Shown here: positions 3,705-40,138 of the stretch, in pieces | How the letters are laid out: each line of letters begins with the position of its first letter | Numbering within the stretch: the stretch's first letter is position 1 | DNA from: Alphaproteobacteria bacterium | Lineage (GTDB): Bacteria > Pseudomonadota > Alphaproteobacteria > JAJTHO01 > CANGXP01 | Reading direction: 5' to 3' | Assembly: GCA_947457935.1 (NCBI GenBank) | Contig: CANGXP010000014.1 | Span: forward strand, 1-40,578 | DNA: 40,578 bases | Notes under the pieces: model-generated | Database searches by the model: none | What the model saw: only the letters and a program-made list of their open reading frames with translations | Told to the model about the DNA's origin: nothing | Translations under genes and position numbers: made by a program

Positions 3705-4070
3705 ATGGACAGCAAAGAATTTGCCTTTTGGCTCAAAGGCGCGTTAGAAATCGGGGGCAAAGCCTCTTTTACCGATCAGCGCGTTGAACTCATCACTAAG
3801 CGTGCTTCAGATGTGCAAAGCCCTGATGATTTTGTGTTGTTCGTGCGTCGCTTGCTCTATTGGAACACGGCGGAAACTGCTTTCACCAGCCTAAGCCAAG
3901 CAATTGGAAAATATTTCAAAGATCATTTATACGCACACAACCCAACGGCTAACCCTTATGGGTATAATGTAACGCAAAGCAAACCTGCGGGCATCCCCAA
4001 TGGGAATCGGCCTCCGTTGCCTGAGATGAGTGAAGCAACGGATGAGCCGTTACCTGCAGTTACGCATTAA
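3705..4070 (+). CDS. Small conserved hypothetical protein, phage-type
   Basis: A 121-residue protein with a good ribosome-binding site (AAGAGAGAA) ahead of an ATG. The N-terminus, MDSKEFAFWLKGALEIGG, resembles a family of short uncharacterised proteins found in many proteobacteria and phages that begin with an EFxxWLxGxxE motif. The C-terminal 40 residues are rich in Pro, Asn and Gly and probably disordered. No signal peptide or membrane segment is present. It lies 78 bp after smpB on the same strand and could have its own promoter. Function unknown; the family link is from memory of the motif only. Confidence 0.7.
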   Translation: MDSKEFAFWLKGALEIGGKASFTDQRVELITKRASDVQSPDDFVLFVRRLLYWNTAETAFTSLSQAIGKYFKDHLYAHNPTANPYGYNVTQSKPAGIPNGNRPPLPEMSEATDEPLPAVTH

Positions 4071-4106
4071 CGCCCATAACTACCAAGCTGCTTTATTTTA
4101 TTGTTC

Positions 4107-4209: not shown

Positions 4210-6015
4210 CTAACGCCCCGCCGCCGTGCCTTCCCGCCGTGGATCACTCACGCCCACCAACGTGCCGTTATCTTCAACATAAATCGCGTTCACACCACTC
4301 GTAAGATTGGCTTCAACAACGGTGTGTCCTTTGGCTTTCAGCGCGTTGATAATGGCAGGAGAAAAGCGTTTTTCTTCCAGTTCTAATTCGCCATTTCTGT
4401 CCACAAAGTGCCCTCCAGCAAGGGCTGCCTCCAGTGGCTTTTTCCAGTCCAGCACTTCCACCAATGTTTTGACAACAAACGGCGTGATACGCGCCCCACC
4501 GGGGGAACCGACCACCATTTTGAGATTGCCCTTGCTATCAAACACAAAGGTTGGCGACATAGAACTACGCGGGCGTTTATTCGGCTGCACACGATTGGCA
4601 ATTTTTTTGCCCTTTTCAACAGGCGTAAACGCAAAATCTGTCAACTCATTGTTCAACAAAAATCCGCCCGCAAACAACCGTGAACCGAAGGTATTTTCAA
4701 TACTGGTTGTTAAGGAGACAGCGTTGCCATAGCGATCCACCACGCTGATATGCGAAGTAGAAATAGGTTCAACCTGCGTATAGTCGCCTGCATATTTTTT
4801 GCCAAATGGTTGCCCTGCTGTTGCCGTCCCCAATGTTTTTGCAGGGGAAATCAGTTTCGCACGGCTCGTAACATAGCGTTTATCAAGGAGCGCCGTTTGT
4901 TTATACTGCACAAAAGCAGGGTCAGCGATATAGCGATTTCTGTCTGCATATGCGAGCGCACTTGCTTCTGCAACAAGGTGAATCGCCTCCGCACTATCAG
5001 GTTTTGCTTTGTGAAATGCGGTTTTCTCTAAAATTGCCAGTGTTTGCAGGGTTACAATTCCGCCGCCACTTGAAGGGGGCACGCCGCAAATTTTATACGC
5101 CCGATAGCCGTTGCACACAGGCGATTTTTCCAACGCCGTATACTCAATAAAATCACTAATCGTTAATTTTCCGCGATTAACAGGCGCTTTGTTAACCGCC
5201 GCGAGCATAAGGTCAGTTGTATCACCCTGATAAAATTCTTTCGCACCATTCACGGCAATGCGGTGGATAGTCTCGCCCAATACAGGATTTTTCAGGATAT
5301 GCCCCGCTTGCCACGGCTTACCACTTTTATCATAAAAATAGGCACGCGATGCAGGGATACTTGCTAAATATGGCTCATTTTCTAACTGATAGTGCAGACG
5401 CTCTGAAACAGCAAAGCCCTTGCGTGCAGCGGTTGCCGTGGGGTATAACAAGTCAAACCATTGCGTTCTGCCATATTTTCCATGGGCATCTTCCAACATT
5501 TTTAACAATCCGGGAACCCCTACTGATTTGCCGCCAACAACAGCCGTGAAAAACTCTTGTGCGCGACCTTTTTTATCTAAGAACATTTTTTCAGAGGCAC
5601 TGGCAGGTGCCGTTTCCCGCCCATCAAACGCCACGGTTTGCTTGGTTTTGGCATCATACACCAGCATATAGCCGCCACCGCCAATGCCAGAAGCAAACGG
5701 CTCAACCAGCGTCAACATCACGCTCGCGGCAATCGCTGCATCAACCGCCGTCCCCCCTTTTGCGAGCACCACTTCCCCTGCTTGTGTTGCCAAGGGATGT
5801 GGCGTCACAATCATGTAATTCTTCCCACGAACAGCGGGCTTAGGGTTCCATTTATAATAGCTCTCAGGCTGGATAGATTCCTTGGTGCCCGCAACAGTTT
5901 TACTCTGCGCTGCCACAACAGCAGGCAGTGGCGTAACAGCTACCGTTTGTGTCGTCTGCAAAGGCGCACACGCAACCATTATTGAAAGTGCCAATAAACT
6001 AACAAAACGTTGCAT
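4210..6015 (-). CDS. ggt: Gamma-glutamyltranspeptidase, predicted lipoprotein
   Basis: Cleaves or transfers the gamma-glutamyl group of glutathione and related peptides in the periplasm. The 601-residue precursor should self-cleave before the nucleophile Thr420 in the STSHISVVD motif. Other family signatures are SGIGGGGYM, SSGGGIVTLQ, NNELTDF and the late GSPGGARI motif. The N-terminus MQRFVSLLALSIMVAC ends in a lipobox cysteine, so membrane anchoring is likely. The start at 6015 has AAGGA eight bases upstream; the in-frame ATG at 6042 would overlap nadC. It is the last gene of the ftsE-to-ggt unit, 16 bases after nadC. Confidence 0.95.
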   Translation of the reverse strand: MQRFVSLLALSIMVACAPLQTTQTVAVTPLPAVVAAQSKTVAGTKESIQPESYYKWNPKPAVRGKNYMIVTPHPLATQAGEVVLAKGGTAVDAAIAASVMLTLVEPFASGIGGGGYMLVYDAKTKQTVAFDGRETAPASASEKMFLDKKGRAQEFFTAVVGGKSVGVPGLLKMLEDAHGKYGRTQWFDLLYPTATAARKGFAVSERLHYQLENEPYLASIPASRAYFYDKSGKPWQAGHILKNPVLGETIHRIAVNGAKEFYQGDTTDLMLAAVNKAPVNRGKLTISDFIEYTALEKSPVCNGYRAYKICGVPPSSGGGIVTLQTLAILEKTAFHKAKPDSAEAIHLVAEASALAYADRNRYIADPAFVQYKQTALLDKRYVTSRAKLISPAKTLGTATAGQPFGKKYAGDYTQVEPISTSHISVVDRYGNAVSLTTSIENTFGSRLFAGGFLLNNELTDFAFTPVEKGKKIANRVQPNKRPRSSMSPTFVFDSKGNLKMVVGSPGGARITPFVVKTLVEVLDWKKPLEAALAGGHFVDRNGELELEEKRFSPAIINALKAKGHTVVEANLTSGVNAIYVEDNGTLVGVSDPRREGTAAGR

Positions 6016-32681: not shown

Positions 32682-32759
32682 GGCGGGCGTAGCTCAGTTG
32701 GTTAGAGCGCGAGATTGTGGTTCTTGAGGTCGGGGGTTCGAGACCCCTCGCTCGCCCCA
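32682..32759 (+). tRNA. tRNA-His (GTG anticodon), G-1 and CCA encoded
   Basis: A full cloverleaf can be folded. The acceptor stem GCGGGCG (32683-32689) pairs with CGCTCGC, with one G-U pair. There is a D arm GCTC/GAGC, an anticodon stem CGAGA/TCTTG with loop TTGTGGT (anticodon GTG), and a T arm GGGGG/CCCCT with loop TTCGAGA. An extra 5' G (32682) pairs with C73, the histidine identity element, and CCA is encoded (32757-32759). It has its own promoter and borders the accessory region to the right. Confidence 0.97.
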
Positions 32760-33097: not shown

Positions 33098-33898
33098 TTA
33101 GTTAAAGTGCGATTTTATGCTGGTATATTTCCTGCGACTAATGGGAATAATATATCCTTGTTTCATAAGGACGTTTCTGTCTGGTGCTTTGCCTATTATT
33201 TTTTCCACATGAATCTTATTTATCCAATAAGAACGATGGGTTTGTAATCCGTCATATAGACCCTTTAATTCTTCCATTGCATTTTGAAGATTATAAAGCT
33301 GTAAGGTTTCGCCTTTAGTGGTGACAATTCTTAAATAATGAAGTTCGGACATCAGGTAGATAATGTCACGACCAAGTTCATGCGGTATTAACGAGAGAAT
33401 GCATGGCTCGGTGCAGGGTGCTGGCTCGGTCTTTTTTTGTTGCGCATCGGCAATGTCATGATGTTGAAAATTAAGCTGCAATATTCGGGGGGCATTGATG
33501 GCAATCCAGGTTAATGTTACTAGACCTACCACCCCCATAGTCTCTTCAAGGCCAAGTAACAGTATTTGTTCTGGTGTTTGAACATTAATCCAATCATCAA
33601 GTCCCATAATATAATCAATGCTAAGACCTATAGGCACAAAGACAAGTGATCCTGTAAATCCTGCTAATCCTGTTTTTAACCAAGGATTTAAATGCTCAAA
33701 AAATGATATTTTTTGCAAAAAGCCATGAGTATAAATAAGCAAAGGCATCAAAATACTGAATTGTATTATCCAGAAAATAAGACTTACCAGAACACTTTCT
33801 CCAGCAAGGGACTCTGGCTCCAGCATAGTAAAGAGCAGGATTAAAAAAACACTGACCCAAAAAAAATAGCGTTTTGATGAGATAGAGTGAAAGTGCAT
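33098..33898 (-). CDS. Membrane-anchored LytTR-type transcription regulator
   Basis: A 266-residue protein. Residues about 10-150 hold four hydrophobic segments (FFWVSVFLILLFTML, LIFWIIQFSILMPLLI, GFTGSLVFVPIGL, GVVGLVTLTWIAI). A linker follows, then a C-terminal LytTR DNA-binding domain (about residues 165-262) with ELHYLRIVTTKGE, MEELKGLYDG, QTHRSYWINKIHVEKI and IPISRRKY. This is the arrangement of membrane-bound LytTR regulators without receiver or kinase domains; the signal is unknown. It is divergent from an outer-membrane protein gene 280 bp away, and the intergenic region carries LytTR-like boxes, so it probably controls that gene and itself. Confidence 0.85.
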   Translation of the reverse strand: MHFHSISSKRYFFWVSVFLILLFTMLEPESLAGESVLVSLIFWIIQFSILMPLLIYTHGFLQKISFFEHLNPWLKTGLAGFTGSLVFVPIGLSIDYIMGLDDWINVQTPEQILLLGLEETMGVVGLVTLTWIAINAPRILQLNFQHHDIADAQQKKTEPAPCTEPCILSLIPHELGRDIIYLMSELHYLRIVTTKGETLQLYNLQNAMEELKGLYDGLQTHRSYWINKIHVEKIIGKAPDRNVLMKQGYIIPISRRKYTSIKSHFN

Positions 33899-34000
33899 GA
33901 ATGTGTACTATATTCTTTGCATATGAAAAATATGCAAGGTTTCGCTTAAAAGTCGCGCAGGTTGTACCTCTCGTAAGAAGCTTATGAGCAGCTCCAATGT

Positions 34001-34066
34001 ACGAGCGGTATAGATAGAGTCTTGATAAAAATAGTGACCGTTCATGTAATTTATTAACCGCTCATG
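34001..34066. promoter_or_regulatory. Putative LytTR binding boxes
   Basis: ACCGTTCATG (34037-34046) and ACCGCTCATG (34057-34066) are direct repeats offset by 20 bp, about two helical turns. The first fits the published LytTR consensus [TA][AC][CA]GTTN[AG][TG] at every position and the second differs at one. An inverted copy (ACCGCTCGT on the minus strand, 34001-34009) lies 36 bp upstream, and a weaker ACCTCTCGT at 33966-33974. They lie 112-177 bp before the outer-membrane gene start. No clear -10/-35 pair could be fixed. Confidence 0.6.
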
Positions 34067-34177
34067 CAGAATTAATGTATCGTTATGTGCACAGTTCGTA
34101 ACATATGCACCTACAGTAGGCGTGTGTCAAAATGATATGTGTCATCTGAATCAACCTAAAAATATGGAGATAAAGAT

Positions 34178-34855
34178 ATGAAGTCGAAGTTTTATAGTTT
34201 TGTGTTGGGTGCTGCTATTTTTTTAAGCGCATCTCCGTCTAAGGCCGAAAACTTAGTAAGCAATGAGGGGAGATTTTTTGGTAAACTTTACAGTGGTAGC
34301 AGTATACTAGGTGACCAGAATCTTTCACAAACAGGTGTTGCAACGGCTGGTGCCACTGGTGATGCTTCTTTTGACACTGGCTGGATGGCTGGAGCTGCGG
34401 TAGGGTATTACTTTACCGATAATATTGCCGCAGAGCTTGCATGGGATTATCGTAGCAATGGGTTAAATAAAGCAAATTTTTCAGATGGGAAAAATTTTAA
34501 TGAAGGCGATTTTGCCTCAAATATCTTCTTCCTAAATGGCTATTACCATTTTAATCCAGTTTTAAATAGCAGATTTCGTCCTTATTTAGGAACAGGTCTT
34601 GGTTTTGTTGAAGAGATTGATATGGATTTAAAATCCAATGGGGTAGAAACATCCTATTCTAATGATGGAGAATTGGCCTATCAATTTATCGCAGGAACGT
34701 CGTATAGTCTGACAAAAAACTGGGATTTAACGGCTGATGTACGCTATATGCGTGTTGATGGGATTACTTTAAAAAATGAAAAAGGTACGGGTGAGCTAAG
34801 GAATGTGGATTACGATCCTGTGTCTTTAACCGTGGGTGCTGTTTACAAATTCTAA
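34178..34855 (+). CDS. Outer-membrane beta-barrel protein (OmpW/OmpA-barrel type)
   Basis: A 225-residue precursor with a signal peptide (cleaved after about SPSKA), alternating hydrophobic beta-strand pattern, GWMAGAAVGYYFTDNIAAELAWDY, RFRPYLGTGLGFVEE, and a terminal phenylalanine (VGAVYKF), the BAM recognition signal. These fit a small eight-stranded barrel of the outer-membrane beta-barrel domain family; no OmpA peptidoglycan-binding domain follows. A GGAG site precedes the ATG. The gene faces the LytTR regulator and has LytTR boxes upstream. A 7-bp hairpin (GAAGATC/GATCTTC, 34892-34907) lies after it. Confidence 0.85.
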   Translation: MKSKFYSFVLGAAIFLSASPSKAENLVSNEGRFFGKLYSGSSILGDQNLSQTGVATAGATGDASFDTGWMAGAAVGYYFTDNIAAELAWDYRSNGLNKANFSDGKNFNEGDFASNIFFLNGYYHFNPVLNSRFRPYLGTGLGFVEEIDMDLKSNGVETSYSNDGELAYQFIAGTSYSLTKNWDLTADVRYMRVDGITLKNEKGTGELRNVDYDPVSLTVGAVYKF

Positions 34856-34917: not shown

Positions 34918-35520
34918 TTGAACTGCTCCCAAAAATCAAACCACAGATATGGGGATATTAGCTATACCTACAGCGGAACGGGTGCAAACATAGCGGGAAC
35001 GCTAGATGCACCCAACGTGCTGTTGTATAATGCCACAGGCAGCTTAACGCTTGGTATGAACAATGTTCGTCCGACAGCTGCATTTAGTGCGTGTGTTGAC
35101 CTAGCTATTGCAGGTTGTTCGACAAGTAATACAAGTGGCGGTACAGTTACAATCAACAATAGCCGCACCGTCTCAGGCGCTATCAGTATAAACGGCACCA
35201 GCGGGGTTACAATAAATGGCGCTCTCAGCGGCGGAAGCTTCAGCGGCTTTAACTATAACTCAGGCGCTTCAACACTAGCTGTCAACAACACATTAACAGC
35301 AACAGCAGGGGCAATCAGCCTTACACCCAACGGCACATTAACCATTGCAAACAATCTGACCGCTTCGGGCGCGATAACACTGACTGCGGCAACCGCCATT
35401 AACCTGCAAGGCACACACCAAGCGGGTAGCGGGTTTACCATCAGCAACAACGCAACCCTGACCGGTGCCAATGTTCTGCGCAGCACGGGTGCGGCGAGCA
35501 CACTTACTTTCCAATTCTCA
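34918..35520 (+). pseudogene. Fragment of a repetitive adhesin/autotransporter-like gene
   Basis: An open stretch of about 200 codons without a convincing start (TTG at 34918) and without signal peptide. Its content is Gly/Ser/Thr/Asn-rich beta-strand repeats (GTVTINNSRTVSGAISING, GTLTIANNLTASGAITL), as in the passenger or haemagglutinin-repeat regions of large surface proteins. The repeat character stops near 35515 and the next small gene begins on the same DNA. It looks like a leftover piece of a much larger gene. It could instead be a short secreted peptide, but that is less likely. Confidence 0.55.
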
Positions 35521-35545
35521 GAAAAAAGTGTTGTCTGGAATTTTG

Positions 35546-35725
35546 ATGTGCGATGAACTTTTTACTTCAGAACGCGAACAAATTCAAGCGATGTTGGGAA
35601 AAGATGTGATAACCGCCCAAGAAATAGCATGGATAGAAAAGCTTATTAAAAAACTGAGTGATGGCGGATTTTGTAAACGGCATCAGACAGATGCCGTGTT
35701 CGCCTTTTTAGGTGACGGCAAGTAA
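35546..35725 (+). CDS. Small hypothetical protein, 59 residues
   Basis: MCDELFTSEREQIQAMLGKD followed by a helical, charged body (EIAWIEKLIKKLSDGGFCKRHQTDAVFAFL). It reads like a genuine small helical protein with no membrane segment. The ribosome-binding site is weak and an earlier GTG start is possible. It directly follows the adhesin fragment and precedes a strong hairpin. Function unknown. Confidence 0.45.
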   Translation: MCDELFTSEREQIQAMLGKDVITAQEIAWIEKLIKKLSDGGFCKRHQTDAVFAFLGDGK

Positions 35726-36544: not shown

Positions 36545-36826
36545 TCACCCCCGTGGCGGTGTCATCAAGGTTTGGTAGATAGCGGCGGCGTGGTGTTGAA
36601 TTGCCATCAAATAGGCTTGCGTTGCTGTATCGGGTGTTCTTATGCCTTGCTCCCAATTTGCAACCGATTTAGGGGAAAAGCCAAACGCCCAACCGAACGC
36701 CTTTTGCGTCATGCCTAAACGGTCTCTTAATTCTGCAACGTCTACGGGGACAATATGCCCCTTAACTGCCTTGCGTAACCTACCACCGTAACAATAGCGT
36801 CTGCTTAAAGGGAAAGTAACAGTCAT
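36545..36826 (-). CDS. XRE-family helix-turn-helix regulator (YiaG/HigA-like)
   Basis: A 93-residue protein whose second half is an XRE HTH: LRDRLGMTQKAFGWAFGFSPKSVANWEQGIRTP. The WEQG motif of the recognition helix is typical of antitoxin-like and small phage regulators. The ATG at 36826 has AAGG at good spacing; an in-frame TTG five codons earlier overlaps the preceding stop. No toxin gene is recognisable beside it. Confidence 0.75.
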   Translation of the reverse strand: MTVTFPLSRRYCYGGRLRKAVKGHIVPVDVAELRDRLGMTQKAFGWAFGFSPKSVANWEQGIRTPDTATQAYLMAIQHHAAAIYQTLMTPPRG

Positions 36827-36837
36827 ATAAAAACCTT

Positions 36838-37161
36838 TCAATGATAGACTTTAGAGGGTAAATTGCTTGTGGTGAGAACATCCAGCATGGCTTCAAATGA
36901 TTTTGCCTGTGTCGTCACGGTGGCTTGCACGGGCTTGCCATACGCACGATTGAGTATTTCTTGCGCCGCCGCCAATCTTTCCGCATTTTTCCCATTTCTC
37001 AAAACGTCCAAAAGAACGCCTATTGCTTCGGGGGCGTGTTCTTGCATGAGACGCTGAAACTCAAGCACTTTCTTTGATTTACCAAGTGGATTGCCGCTTA
37101 CACCTTTTGTAAAGCCGCCCTTTCCTGTGGGGTTGGGGATTTTATCGGGTGATTTTCGCAT
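36838..37161 (-). CDS. DUF5681-type phage-associated protein
   Basis: A 107-residue basic protein with a glycine-rich start, GKGGFTKGVSGNPLGKSKK, matching the FxKGxSGNPxGR signature of DUF5681, a domain common in alphaproteobacterial prophages and often beside terminase genes. A helical stretch follows (LLDVLRNGKNAERLAAAQEILNRAYGKP), as in small terminase-like or DNA-binding proteins. It ends 12 bases before the XRE gene start. Function unknown. Confidence 0.65.
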   Translation of the reverse strand: MRKSPDKIPNPTGKGGFTKGVSGNPLGKSKKVLEFQRLMQEHAPEAIGVLLDVLRNGKNAERLAAAQEILNRAYGKPVQATVTTQAKSFEAMLDVLTTSNLPSKVYH

Positions 37162-37208
37162 CGTAGATAGTTCCTTAAACTTGTAAGCAGGTTAGTAGTA
37201 TTTACGGG

Positions 37209-37886
37209 TTATAATTCCCACACCATACACGCCACATCGGGCTTAAACGGGGTACGGGTAAAGGTTTGAGTGGCGTTGTGGGGTGTTCTTAGTTTTGCCG
37301 TGTTCTCACTTAAAGCAATCACGGTATTATGCTGTAGCAACGGCAATAAACCCATACAATCGTATCGCACTGTTGGCACGATACGATGCACCGCAAACAG
37401 GTCATGCGTTTGCCAGCCTAGAGCGGCGGCTTTTGCACCCCATTCATCTAGAAACAGCCCTGTGTTGTTTATAAGTGTTTCCCATGCGTCCCTATCCCCT
37501 TTCTAGTTTGCAGGGCGTGGCATGGTGCAAAGTTTTGCATAGCCCTCTGCCCATAACAGGGGTATATTGCCGTCATGATGAATGAGGGCGAGGCGTTCTT
37601 GAAGTTCCCCTTCCCGTTCTGCCTTAAAGTGTGGGACAATTTGTCGGTTTTTAAGGCGCGGTTGTCCCACGGGTTTTTCACGGAATATTGCTTGCTGTCC
37701 CGTATTTGTCCCGCACCCTGTCCCGCTTAATAGGGCTTTGGATAAGGCGATAATGCTTCTTTGTCCCGTAACTGTCCCGCCGTTTGTCCCATTCATTGAC
37801 AGTGCGGGGGCAACTGTCCCACTGTCCCACGTTATAGGGTTGGGACAAATGGGACAGTTAGGCGTGCTGTGAATATCCTGCATCAT
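37209..37886 (-). pseudogene. Phage-type gene interrupted by an in-frame TAG
   Basis: From the ATG at 37886 a frame runs 127 codons to TAG at 37505-37503, then continues in the same frame, without a start codon until a GTG at 37391, for 97 more codons to TAA at 37211-37209. The two parts read as one protein: AEGYAKLCTMPRP before the stop, and DAWETLINNTGLFLDEWGAK plus AAALGWQTHDLFAVH after it. That layout is familiar from small alphaproteobacterial prophage proteins, whose C-terminus has RFLDRWGxxAAxLGW. TAG is an ordinary stop for smpB, bioF and mrcA here, so a nonsense mutation is the default reading. The start is coupled to the helicase stop (TAATG). Confidence 0.75.
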
Positions 37887-38863
37887 TACAACGCTGCCTC
37901 CCGAATTTTTTGCTGCAGGCGGCTCACTTTTGATTTGCCTATGCCCAACTCCTCTGCAATTTCACGAACGCTGCAACCGTCTTTCGTGAGGGCTGCCACT
38001 TGTTCGAGCGTTCGGTCTGCAAGCTCTTTTGTTGCCCAACCGCCATCTATAAGGGTGGCTTCAAAGGATTTTGCCGCATCGCCAAAAATGCCGCGTGCTT
38101 TTTCAAGATGCACCTCAAACCGTGCCCCTTCACTGCTATTGTAATCCTCAGGGCGTTTGAGCAAAATCACCGTATCGAGAATATCCTCACGGCGTGACGT
38201 GCCGCGTTGCTGCCCGCCTTTGCCCGCATGATGCACCAAAAGAACACTTTTACCCTGCCTACGCAATTCAAGCACCCACTGTTGCACGGGCAACCAGCCA
38301 TCCGCCTCATTCTCCTTGCCTGTACGGCACAAGGTGGACAAGTTATCTATCACGATAAGCTCTGCAGCGGCTAAAAACGGCGCAAGGATTGCCTGCCCCT
38401 CCTTAGTAGCAATATCAGGCAAGCCATATTCTTGACGGTCGGGGGTTATCAGTTGAAAATAATCATCAGCGGGCAGTTCAAGCCCTTGTTGCTGCACCGT
38501 TTGTGCTAAACGCTCTTGCATCGTGCCTGCAGGCATCTCGCCATCAATATAAAGCACCTTGCGGGGTTTATCCGCTTTCCAGTGAAAGACAGTGCCGCCT
38601 GTAGCCACCGCCACCGCAATCGCAAGTGCAGTATGGGTTTTGCCAACGCCGCGATAAGCGTATAGCATAACAAGCCCTTGCGTGGGGATTATCGGCTCTA
38701 GCACAAATTCCCGTGGGGGGATGTGATAGCTTAAAAAATCTGGCAGCGTGTCCACCACAAGGGTTTGCTTTGGGGGGCTATTCTCTATATATGCACCCTT
38801 AGAAAAAGGCGTGGCGTTTTCTACAATCGCCTTGATAAGGGTATCGCTTTCTTGTAAACTCAT
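37886..38863 (-). CDS. RepA-like RecA-fold helicase (AAA_25)
   Basis: A 325-residue ATPase with Walker A YRGVGKTH in the first third, LYIDGEMP, Walker B ELIVIDNLS, VLLVHHAGKGG with the sensor region, and SRREDILDTVI. This is the hexameric RepA/GP4d-type replicative helicase fold of plasmids and prophages. The last 45 residues form a helix-turn-helix (DGCSVREIAEELGIGKSKVSR), probably DNA-binding. It overlaps the primase by four bases (ATGA), making a replication pair. Confidence 0.85.
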   Translation of the reverse strand: MSLQESDTLIKAIVENATPFSKGAYIENSPPKQTLVVDTLPDFLSYHIPPREFVLEPIIPTQGLVMLYAYRGVGKTHTALAIAVAVATGGTVFHWKADKPRKVLYIDGEMPAGTMQERLAQTVQQQGLELPADDYFQLITPDRQEYGLPDIATKEGQAILAPFLAAAELIVIDNLSTLCRTGKENEADGWLPVQQWVLELRRQGKSVLLVHHAGKGGQQRGTSRREDILDTVILLKRPEDYNSSEGARFEVHLEKARGIFGDAAKSFEATLIDGGWATKELADRTLEQVAALTKDGCSVREIAEELGIGKSKVSRLQQKIREAAL

Positions 38864-39813
38864 AATGCTAAATCCTTTTGTTTCAAGGCGTTAAAATCTT
38901 TTTGGTTTTGTGGAGGGGTTGCAATTCTCACCTTGTGCCCCTCCCGTGTTAAACGCTCCGCCGCCGCGAGGGCTGCTTTTTGCCCTGCCTCGTCTCCATC
39001 AGCGGCAATAATTATTTCCTGCACGGTATCAGGGAGCATCACGCCTTTAAGCCCCGCCGTGCCTAGGGTAGCCCACACGGGCAATCCCGTGGCTTGCAAG
39101 AGCGTTAAGCCGTCCTCAAGCCCTTCGCACAAAATCAGGGTCTCCCCCGCCGCCGCCAAGCGAACCGCGCCGTTATTCATGCTCCCCAACGTCAATTTTG
39201 GATTTGTGACGTTGGCTTTTTTGGCTGTTGTTGCGTCTAGGAATATCCTGTGTACGGCTGTTATTGCTCTATCAGGGGTTTGGATTGCTGCCACAAGAGC
39301 AGGAAAGTATTGCTTGCTGTCCTTGTGATACAGGCGCGGGTGAAAACGTAACGAGGGAGGTAAGGGGGTTAAGGTGAGCCCCCGATATTCCTGCAAATAG
39401 CGTTCTGCTAAAGTGCCTGCTAAGGGCTTTGCCTGTTTCCATATCTTTAAGGCGCGTTCTTTGTTCTCATTCACGGAAACAACCGCGCTTGTTGCGTTTT
39501 TAAGGGGTGTTGCGGGTGTGATAGCTAGGTTGGATTGATAATCCCCATTAAGCCACGCACAAGCCCATTTAAGAGATTCTGCAAACGATAGGCTCAACAT
39601 GCCCTGAATGAGCGCAATCACATCACCGCCACCACAACTGCAAAACCATGCTTGGCGTTTATTGTCCCATCGAAACGAGGGGTTGCGGTCGTTGTGGCTA
39701 GGTAGGGGGCAACGGATATGTGCCCCCCGCCCATCCCACGCCACCCCCAACACTGCGAATAACGCGGGAAGTGTTGCGTGCAGTCGCTCTTTTATTACTG
39801 CGGTGTTATGCAT
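38860..39813 (-). CDS. CHC2 zinc-finger/Toprim primase
   Basis: A 317-residue primase with an N-terminal zinc-ribbon (CPLPSHNDRNPSF, then FCSCGGGD) and a C-terminal Toprim domain with the acidic motif ILCEGLEDGLT and the metal-binding IIIAADGDEAG. It should prime replication of the element together with the adjacent helicase. The ATG at 39813 has GAGG at good spacing; an in-frame start eight codons earlier is also possible. It overlaps the upstream HTH gene by eight bases. Confidence 0.85.
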   Translation of the reverse strand: MHNTAVIKERLHATLPALFAVLGVAWDGRGAHIRCPLPSHNDRNPSFRWDNKRQAWFCSCGGGDVIALIQGMLSLSFAESLKWACAWLNGDYQSNLAITPATPLKNATSAVVSVNENKERALKIWKQAKPLAGTLAERYLQEYRGLTLTPLPPSLRFHPRLYHKDSKQYFPALVAAIQTPDRAITAVHRIFLDATTAKKANVTNPKLTLGSMNNGAVRLAAAGETLILCEGLEDGLTLLQATGLPVWATLGTAGLKGVMLPDTVQEIIIAADGDEAGQKAALAAAERLTREGHKVRIATPPQNQKDFNALKQKDLAL

Positions 39814-40138
39814 GGCTGCCCTCACTTTCAGGGGCAAGCCCTAGTAAAACGTACCTTGCAACTCCTTGGTGCATCACGCCGTCATCCGTGACAATATCGG
39901 TCGGAATGGTGAGGATATGGTAGCCACGCACACGCAATTCTTTGACGCGCGGCGCGGGGGACATAATCCCCAACTCTTGCCTCGCCTCAAGGGTTGTAAT
40001 TCCCAAGCCATGCCGCTGCTTTAAGGCATCCAAAATGGTTTGCCTTTGCGCGGTTGCGTTGGTAGAGGTGATTGCACGTTTAGATTTTCTGCCCCCACGG
40101 TTTCCGCCTGTGGGGGTTTTTTCTGTTTCCTTGCTCAT
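39806..40138 (-). CDS. Helix-turn-helix protein of a mobile element
   Basis: A 110-residue protein with a basic, disordered N-terminus (GGNRGGRKSKRAI) and a winged-HTH-like core (QTILDALKQRHGLGITTLEARQELGIMSPAPRVKELR), then GVARYVLLGL. Proteins like this occur in prophage early regions just before primases, perhaps as replication-initiation or regulatory factors. It is overlapped on both sides by its neighbours. Confidence 0.65.
   Translation of the reverse strand: MSKETEKTPTGGNRGGRKSKRAITSTNATAQRQTILDALKQRHGLGITTLEARQELGIMSPAPRVKELRVRGYHILTIPTDIVTDDGVMHQGVARYVLLGLAPESEGSHA

Follow-up and report, generated by a model that had tools for sequence, protein, structure and literature searches.

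A putative membrane-anchored LytTR regulator paired with an OmpW-like barrel gene and a conserved direct-repeat operator

Membrane-bound one-component LytTR regulators are already known, HigX (PMC13384398) and CoxC (PMC11347149) among them. HigX (CCNA_03131) of Caulobacter crescentus, the best studied of the four-helix proteins, has been proposed to be a 'fused LRS', and its reported motif is an inverted repeat, ATGTTASC/GSTACCAT, found with many ChIP peaks (PMC13384398). CoxC of Afipia carboxidovorans has a seven-helix MHYT domain and is a repressor whose three repeats overlap the −35 element (PMC11347149). In the LytTR Regulatory Systems (LRS) HdrRM and BrsRM the operators are 9-bp direct repeats with spacers of 11-13 bp, and some 10 bp separate them from the −35 element downstream; these operators activate, and this distance of 10 bp is reported as their strongest bias (PMC6193735). 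Within the open-licence literature we found neither the pairing of a LytTR regulator of this kind with the barrel family described below nor the operator that accompanies it.

The locus lies in a stretch of 40,578 nucleotides of alphaproteobacterial DNA, which we call the window. The two genes at its center, separated by 279 bp, are:

33098 to 33898, minus strand: regulator gene, 266 amino acids, identified from Pfam PF04397, hydropathy and full-length relatives
34178 to 34855, plus strand: gene for an OmpW/Opacity-like outer-membrane beta-barrel, 225 amino acids (Pfam PF13505 and PF03922), the presumed target

The LytTR domain of the regulator occupies residues 177-265 and scores 52.7 bits (E 5e-14) against the Pfam profile, well above the curated cut-off of 22.6 bits. 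Hydropathy peaks at residues 13-31, 37-55, 76-94 and 112-130 correspond to four predicted transmembrane helices, giving a layout of four helices (residues about 13-130), a linker and the C-terminal LytTR domain. The profile match and the hydropathy bear out the initial annotation, which had described a membrane protein with a C-terminal LytTR domain acting without a kinase. Against the Pfam profiles the protein has no domain besides LytTR, with no receiver, kinase or MHYT match, and it is the single LytTR match in the whole 1.83-Mb genome. Residues D95, W131 and N135 are invariant across 12 relatives. No cysteine is common to the 12 regulators compared; a thiol redox signal is therefore unlikely, and we reject the cysteine-based form of the redox sensing that had been suggested. 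Predicted structures from two-sequence alignments have mean pLDDT values of 48 and 28.

Our best reading of the sequence is that this is a one-component inner-membrane LytTR protein of the HigX and CoxC kind, with membrane location and DNA binding predicted. Compared by architecture only, it resembles HigX in having four helices with no periplasmic domain, a linker and a C-terminal LytTR domain in an alphaproteobacterial protein. It shares with CoxC a one-component, membrane-anchored design and a direct-repeat operator, but the MHYT domain of CoxC has no counterpart here. HdrRM and BrsRM also have a membrane component of three or four helices. In those systems, however, a soluble regulator and an inhibitory membrane partner are two proteins, whereas here there is a single fused protein, and the gene beside the regulator encodes not a second LRS component but an outer-membrane barrel.

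That the facing gene encodes such a barrel, as had been proposed, is borne out by Pfam matches to OMP_b-brl (E 7.6e-15), OmpW (3.7e-13) and Opacity (3.8e-10). The C-terminal residue is Phe, and a profile built from 12 barrels matches the structures of OprG (E 1e-6), AlkL, OmpW and NspA. The barrel shares this profile match with the OmpW, OprG and AlkL barrels, yet identity to them is low. It scores 50.3 against Pfam OmpW (cut-off 24) and 37.8 against the NCBIfam OmpW equivalog (cut-off 287), and it lies below the NCBIfam Adr cut-off too; because it falls below both NCBIfam cut-offs it probably belongs to a separate subfamily. Just past the barrel, at 34918-35725 of the window, is a repeat-rich Thr/Ser/Asn-rich reading frame with no clear start. 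It looks like part of an adhesin or of an autotransporter passenger, and has no Pfam match over cut-off.

Between the two genes lie three candidate LytTR sites:

34037 to 34046, plus strand: LytTR box 1, ACCGTTCATG, which fits the published consensus exactly and scores 9.9 bits with a matrix made without the window
34057 to 34066, plus strand: LytTR box 2, ACCGCTCATG, 9.8 bits in the same independent matrix
33997 to 34010, minus strand: a lone box in inverted orientation, TACCGCTCGTACAT, directed towards the regulator gene, a possible autoregulation site

Boxes 1 and 2 are spaced by 20 bp, start to start, and the 1.83-Mb genome has a single instance of the two combined. The box is close to CCGTTCGTC of AlgR (PMC4064291); AlgR is a response regulator, while the regulator of the window lacks a receiver domain. 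We scored the region with a matrix of 24 boxes taken from other genomes only, against a background of 3,000 dinucleotide shuffles. The pair reaches 19.7 bits, a value attained by 0 of 3,000 shuffles (maximum 10.3); the runner-up pair in the window has 10.9 bits. The inverted box, also remarked upon in the initial annotation, is present, but its single-site score of 11.0 bits is equalled by 29 of 3,000 shuffles, so that as a site of autoregulation it is suggestive only. We rejected one more consensus-like sequence, ACAGTTCGT at 34091, as a third box, its matrix score being −0.7.

Relatives of the two genes were sought in public genomes, and then in the class, the phylum and one order. A single full-length relative came from the public genomes; it belongs to the single-cell genome SCGC AAA028-D10 (locus L010), where the barrel is 56% and the regulator 45% identical to those of the window and the genes are in tandem. 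Its taxonomy entry reads unclassified alphaproteobacterium only; we take it to be LD12, freshwater SAR11. Altogether the regulator-barrel pair recurs in 11 other loci (L010, L042, L089, L125, L126, L127, L129, L130, L131, L132 and L133), with barrel identities to the window of 28-56%, and in a twelfth (L135) the regulator is cut by the contig end. The expectation of a divergent pair in related genomes was right as to the genes and wrong as to their arrangement: every other pair locus checked is tandem, so among these loci only the window is divergent. The order on the one strand is regulator then barrel in all of them except L010, where it is barrel then regulator. Regulator and barrel distances correlate at 0.95 over the 12 loci; with seven distinct lineages the value is 0.91. 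As a property of sequence distances this shows co-inheritance, not interaction; shared species history would give the same.

The regulator is missing from three order-mates of the window's genome, and its distribution is therefore patchy. No relatives were found among viral contigs, and the plasmid search gave distant relatives only, the best of them on a Catenovulum plasmid (L056). There a four-helix LytTR gene is divergent from a MipA/OmpV barrel, and in L088 another is divergent from a TonB-type receptor; both loci are without the CCGYTCRTG box pair described below. In L045 such a gene is divergent from a small secreted DUF2141-type protein, and in L091 from one assigned to this type by resemblance, possibly a sister system. 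A LytTR domain 75% identical to that of the window lies at a contig end in L043 (positions 4758-5012) with a stop upstream, adjoining an integrase-like gene and a fragment that resembles a tRNA; it is either truncated, frameshifted or an assembly edge.

The boxes recur together with the genes. In 11 other genomes, at 12 loci, a pair of the form CCGYTCRTG, 20-21 bp apart, precedes the neighboring gene, for example as TCCGTTGGT and ACCATTAGT 20 bp apart upstream in L010, and as TCCGTTCGT and ACCGCTCGT 21 bp apart in L089. An alignment of 15 regions gives a box-spacer-box arrangement in which GTGCA is the firmest part and the spacers are 11-12 bp long. The pairs of L131 and L133 differ at one relaxed position and that of L132 has a mismatch; L042 has one half-site only, and in L130 the pair has diverged. 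Conservation of the boxes next to orthologues had been set beforehand as a check on the proposal, and beside the orthologues they are conserved.

The strict pattern CCGYTCRTG-N10-12-CCGYTCRTG occurs five times in 398 Pseudomonadota genomes, and four of the five occurrences adjoin membrane LytTR genes. Three are at the regulator, in the window, L089 and L090, the last of these having been left out when the pattern was derived. The fourth (G686) is next to an MHYT-LytTR gene, providing a link to CoxC; downstream of this gene is an apparent molybdenum-hydroxylase gene cluster, and we read the locus as a CoxC setting. The remaining occurrence (G674) lies within an oxidoreductase gene region. A slightly wider pattern gave one match in 10 of 13 regulator-bearing genomes and none in three, with 9 of the 10 matches beside the regulator; the reversed pattern had no match in these 13 genomes. 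Second pattern matches are present in G642 (C37) and G660 (C3). A match in G021 lies inside an elongation-factor-like coding sequence and was discarded.

It might be argued that the boxes are chance repeats between unrelated neighbors, because the LytTR consensus is loose: in the window, L010 and L089 regions alike, about 1% of shuffles match the published consensus equally well when it is taken alone. Yet the pair is conserved in 12 loci elsewhere, is near-unique genome-wide and was reached by none of the 3,000 shuffles, and the gene pair recurs at barrel identities down to 28%. At the level of sequence this explanation is already contradicted, and we give it almost no credence. The proposal that LytTR boxes are aimed at the barrel gene is supported, and the boxes, at first the least secure element of the initial annotation, are now the most secure.

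Another explanation accepts the operator as real but places its main regulation on the regulator gene or on other genes, the barrel being a neighbor by history only. The inverted box of the window does face the regulator gene, and the neighbor need not be a barrel. In L090 the box pair lies directly after the stop codon of the regulator and before a PAP2 phosphatase gene, and in L134 the neighbor is by resemblance a PAP2 phosphatase as well. In G884 the operator stands before a LuxR-type gene. Against this, the operator is near-unique per genome, and in the tandem loci the pair sits between regulator and barrel, reading towards the barrel and not upstream of the regulator. We consider this explanation improbable. 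By eye, L090 has four boxes at positions 3999-4090, forming two pairs with a distance of 21 bp within each; 62 bp lie between the pairs, the second being the more upstream one. The G884 site (L139:1501-1530) is the sole operator match there, 71-100 bp upstream of the LuxR-type gene and on a different contig from the regulator.

The position of the pair relative to the barrel promoter bears on the direction of control. Averaged over the loci, the fit to TTGACA-N16-18-TATAAT is best, at 5.5 of 12, with the −35 placed to begin 10 bp beyond the second 9-mer; the test used 12 sequences, some of them closely related, and the promoter matches are weak. In the window this offset corresponds to:

34076 to 34104, plus strand: candidate −35 (TGTATC) and −10 (TAACAT) elements, 17 bp apart, at the best common offset of the 12 loci; a weak match

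Both the spacers of 11-12 bp and the 10-bp offset agree with the LRS operators. LRS operators control their own operon, whereas the operator here precedes the target gene and not the regulator. Because 10 bp separate the pair from the best −35 match downstream, as for the LRS activators, activation is a better reading than repression. The regulator might nevertheless be a repressor that blocks the barrel promoter at the boxes and is released by the signal, as CoxC does at PcoxB. CoxC is itself a membrane-anchored one-component LytTR regulator that represses through direct repeats (PMC11347149), and the barrel promoter here is a predicted one; but the repeats of CoxC overlap the −35, where the pair here lies upstream of the best −35 match. 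Repression seems to us unlikely.

We therefore favor activation, and think it likely from the sequence that a one-component membrane-anchored LytTR regulator activates essentially the one adjacent barrel gene. The regulator would reside permanently in the inner membrane through its four-helix bundle, with the LytTR domain on the cytoplasmic side. The activity of that domain would be altered by a signal acting within the membrane or on it, the helix bundle being the presumed sensor. The boxes, which are separated by two helical turns and lie shortly before the weak −35, would then be occupied by two LytTR domains, and these would bring RNA polymerase to the barrel promoter, so that the regulator would control essentially one envelope gene. 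The sequence itself shows the domain content, a gene pair that recurs, an operator that recurs and is nearly unique, and where this operator stands with respect to the best promoter match; binding of this protein to the boxes, activation and sensing by the bundle we infer. The earlier claim that the regulator controls the surface barrel keeps its domain, its barrel and its boxes, while a redox signal of the cysteine-based kind is not supported. Points against our reading are the weak promoter elements, the half-site of L042, the diverged pair of L130 and the operator elsewhere in G884. The genes bound by HigX lean to the envelope, and the regulator here adjoins an envelope gene. The inverted repeat reported for HigX with its many peaks differs, however, from a direct-repeat pair occurring about once per genome beside its regulator, and this too speaks against our reading.

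The initial annotation also placed the module just beyond a tRNA and suggested that it may be mobile. The tRNA is there:

32683 to 32759: tRNA-His, at a distance of 338 bp from where the regulator gene ends

The tRNA end is present once only in the window, and no integrase was recognized among the neighboring window proteins profiled. A phage- or plasmid-like block on the minus strand at 36545-40138 of the window, with HTH, terminase-small-subunit-like, AAA/RepA-like helicase, Toprim primase and winged-helix proteins, is probably an integrated element beside the tRNA-His. The module is flanked by tRNA-His on one side and by phage-like replication genes on the other, and in L010 a tyrosine recombinase lies about 2 kb from it. 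L129, L131 and L135 share flanking genes, on one side or on both (by resemblance acyl-CoA-dehydrogenase-like and/or tRNA-synthetase-like), and the module is therefore not generally mobile. For the window itself we treat mobility as a possibility.

We offer one further idea tentatively, as a possibility to which we attach no great confidence. The helix bundle may detect a hydrophobic molecule or lipid of the bilayer and switch on one gene alone, that of an OmpW/AlkL-like pore that admits or handles such molecules, forming a closed sensor-pore loop. The operator would then be portable, with the target swapped in certain genomes (for the PAP2 phosphatase or the LuxR-type gene) and the DNA site kept.

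Since the operator recurs with the gene pair in distant bacteria and is nearly the only such site per genome, the module looks like a dedicated one-protein switch. It bears on how a transcription factor that stays in the membrane locates its promoter and controls it, and on what helix bundles with no periplasmic domain sense. It supplies a proposal of a direct-repeat operator for alphaproteobacterial four-helix LytTR proteins, and a clean case of one regulator, one operator and usually one outer-membrane gene, in about a dozen natural variants and three gene orders.
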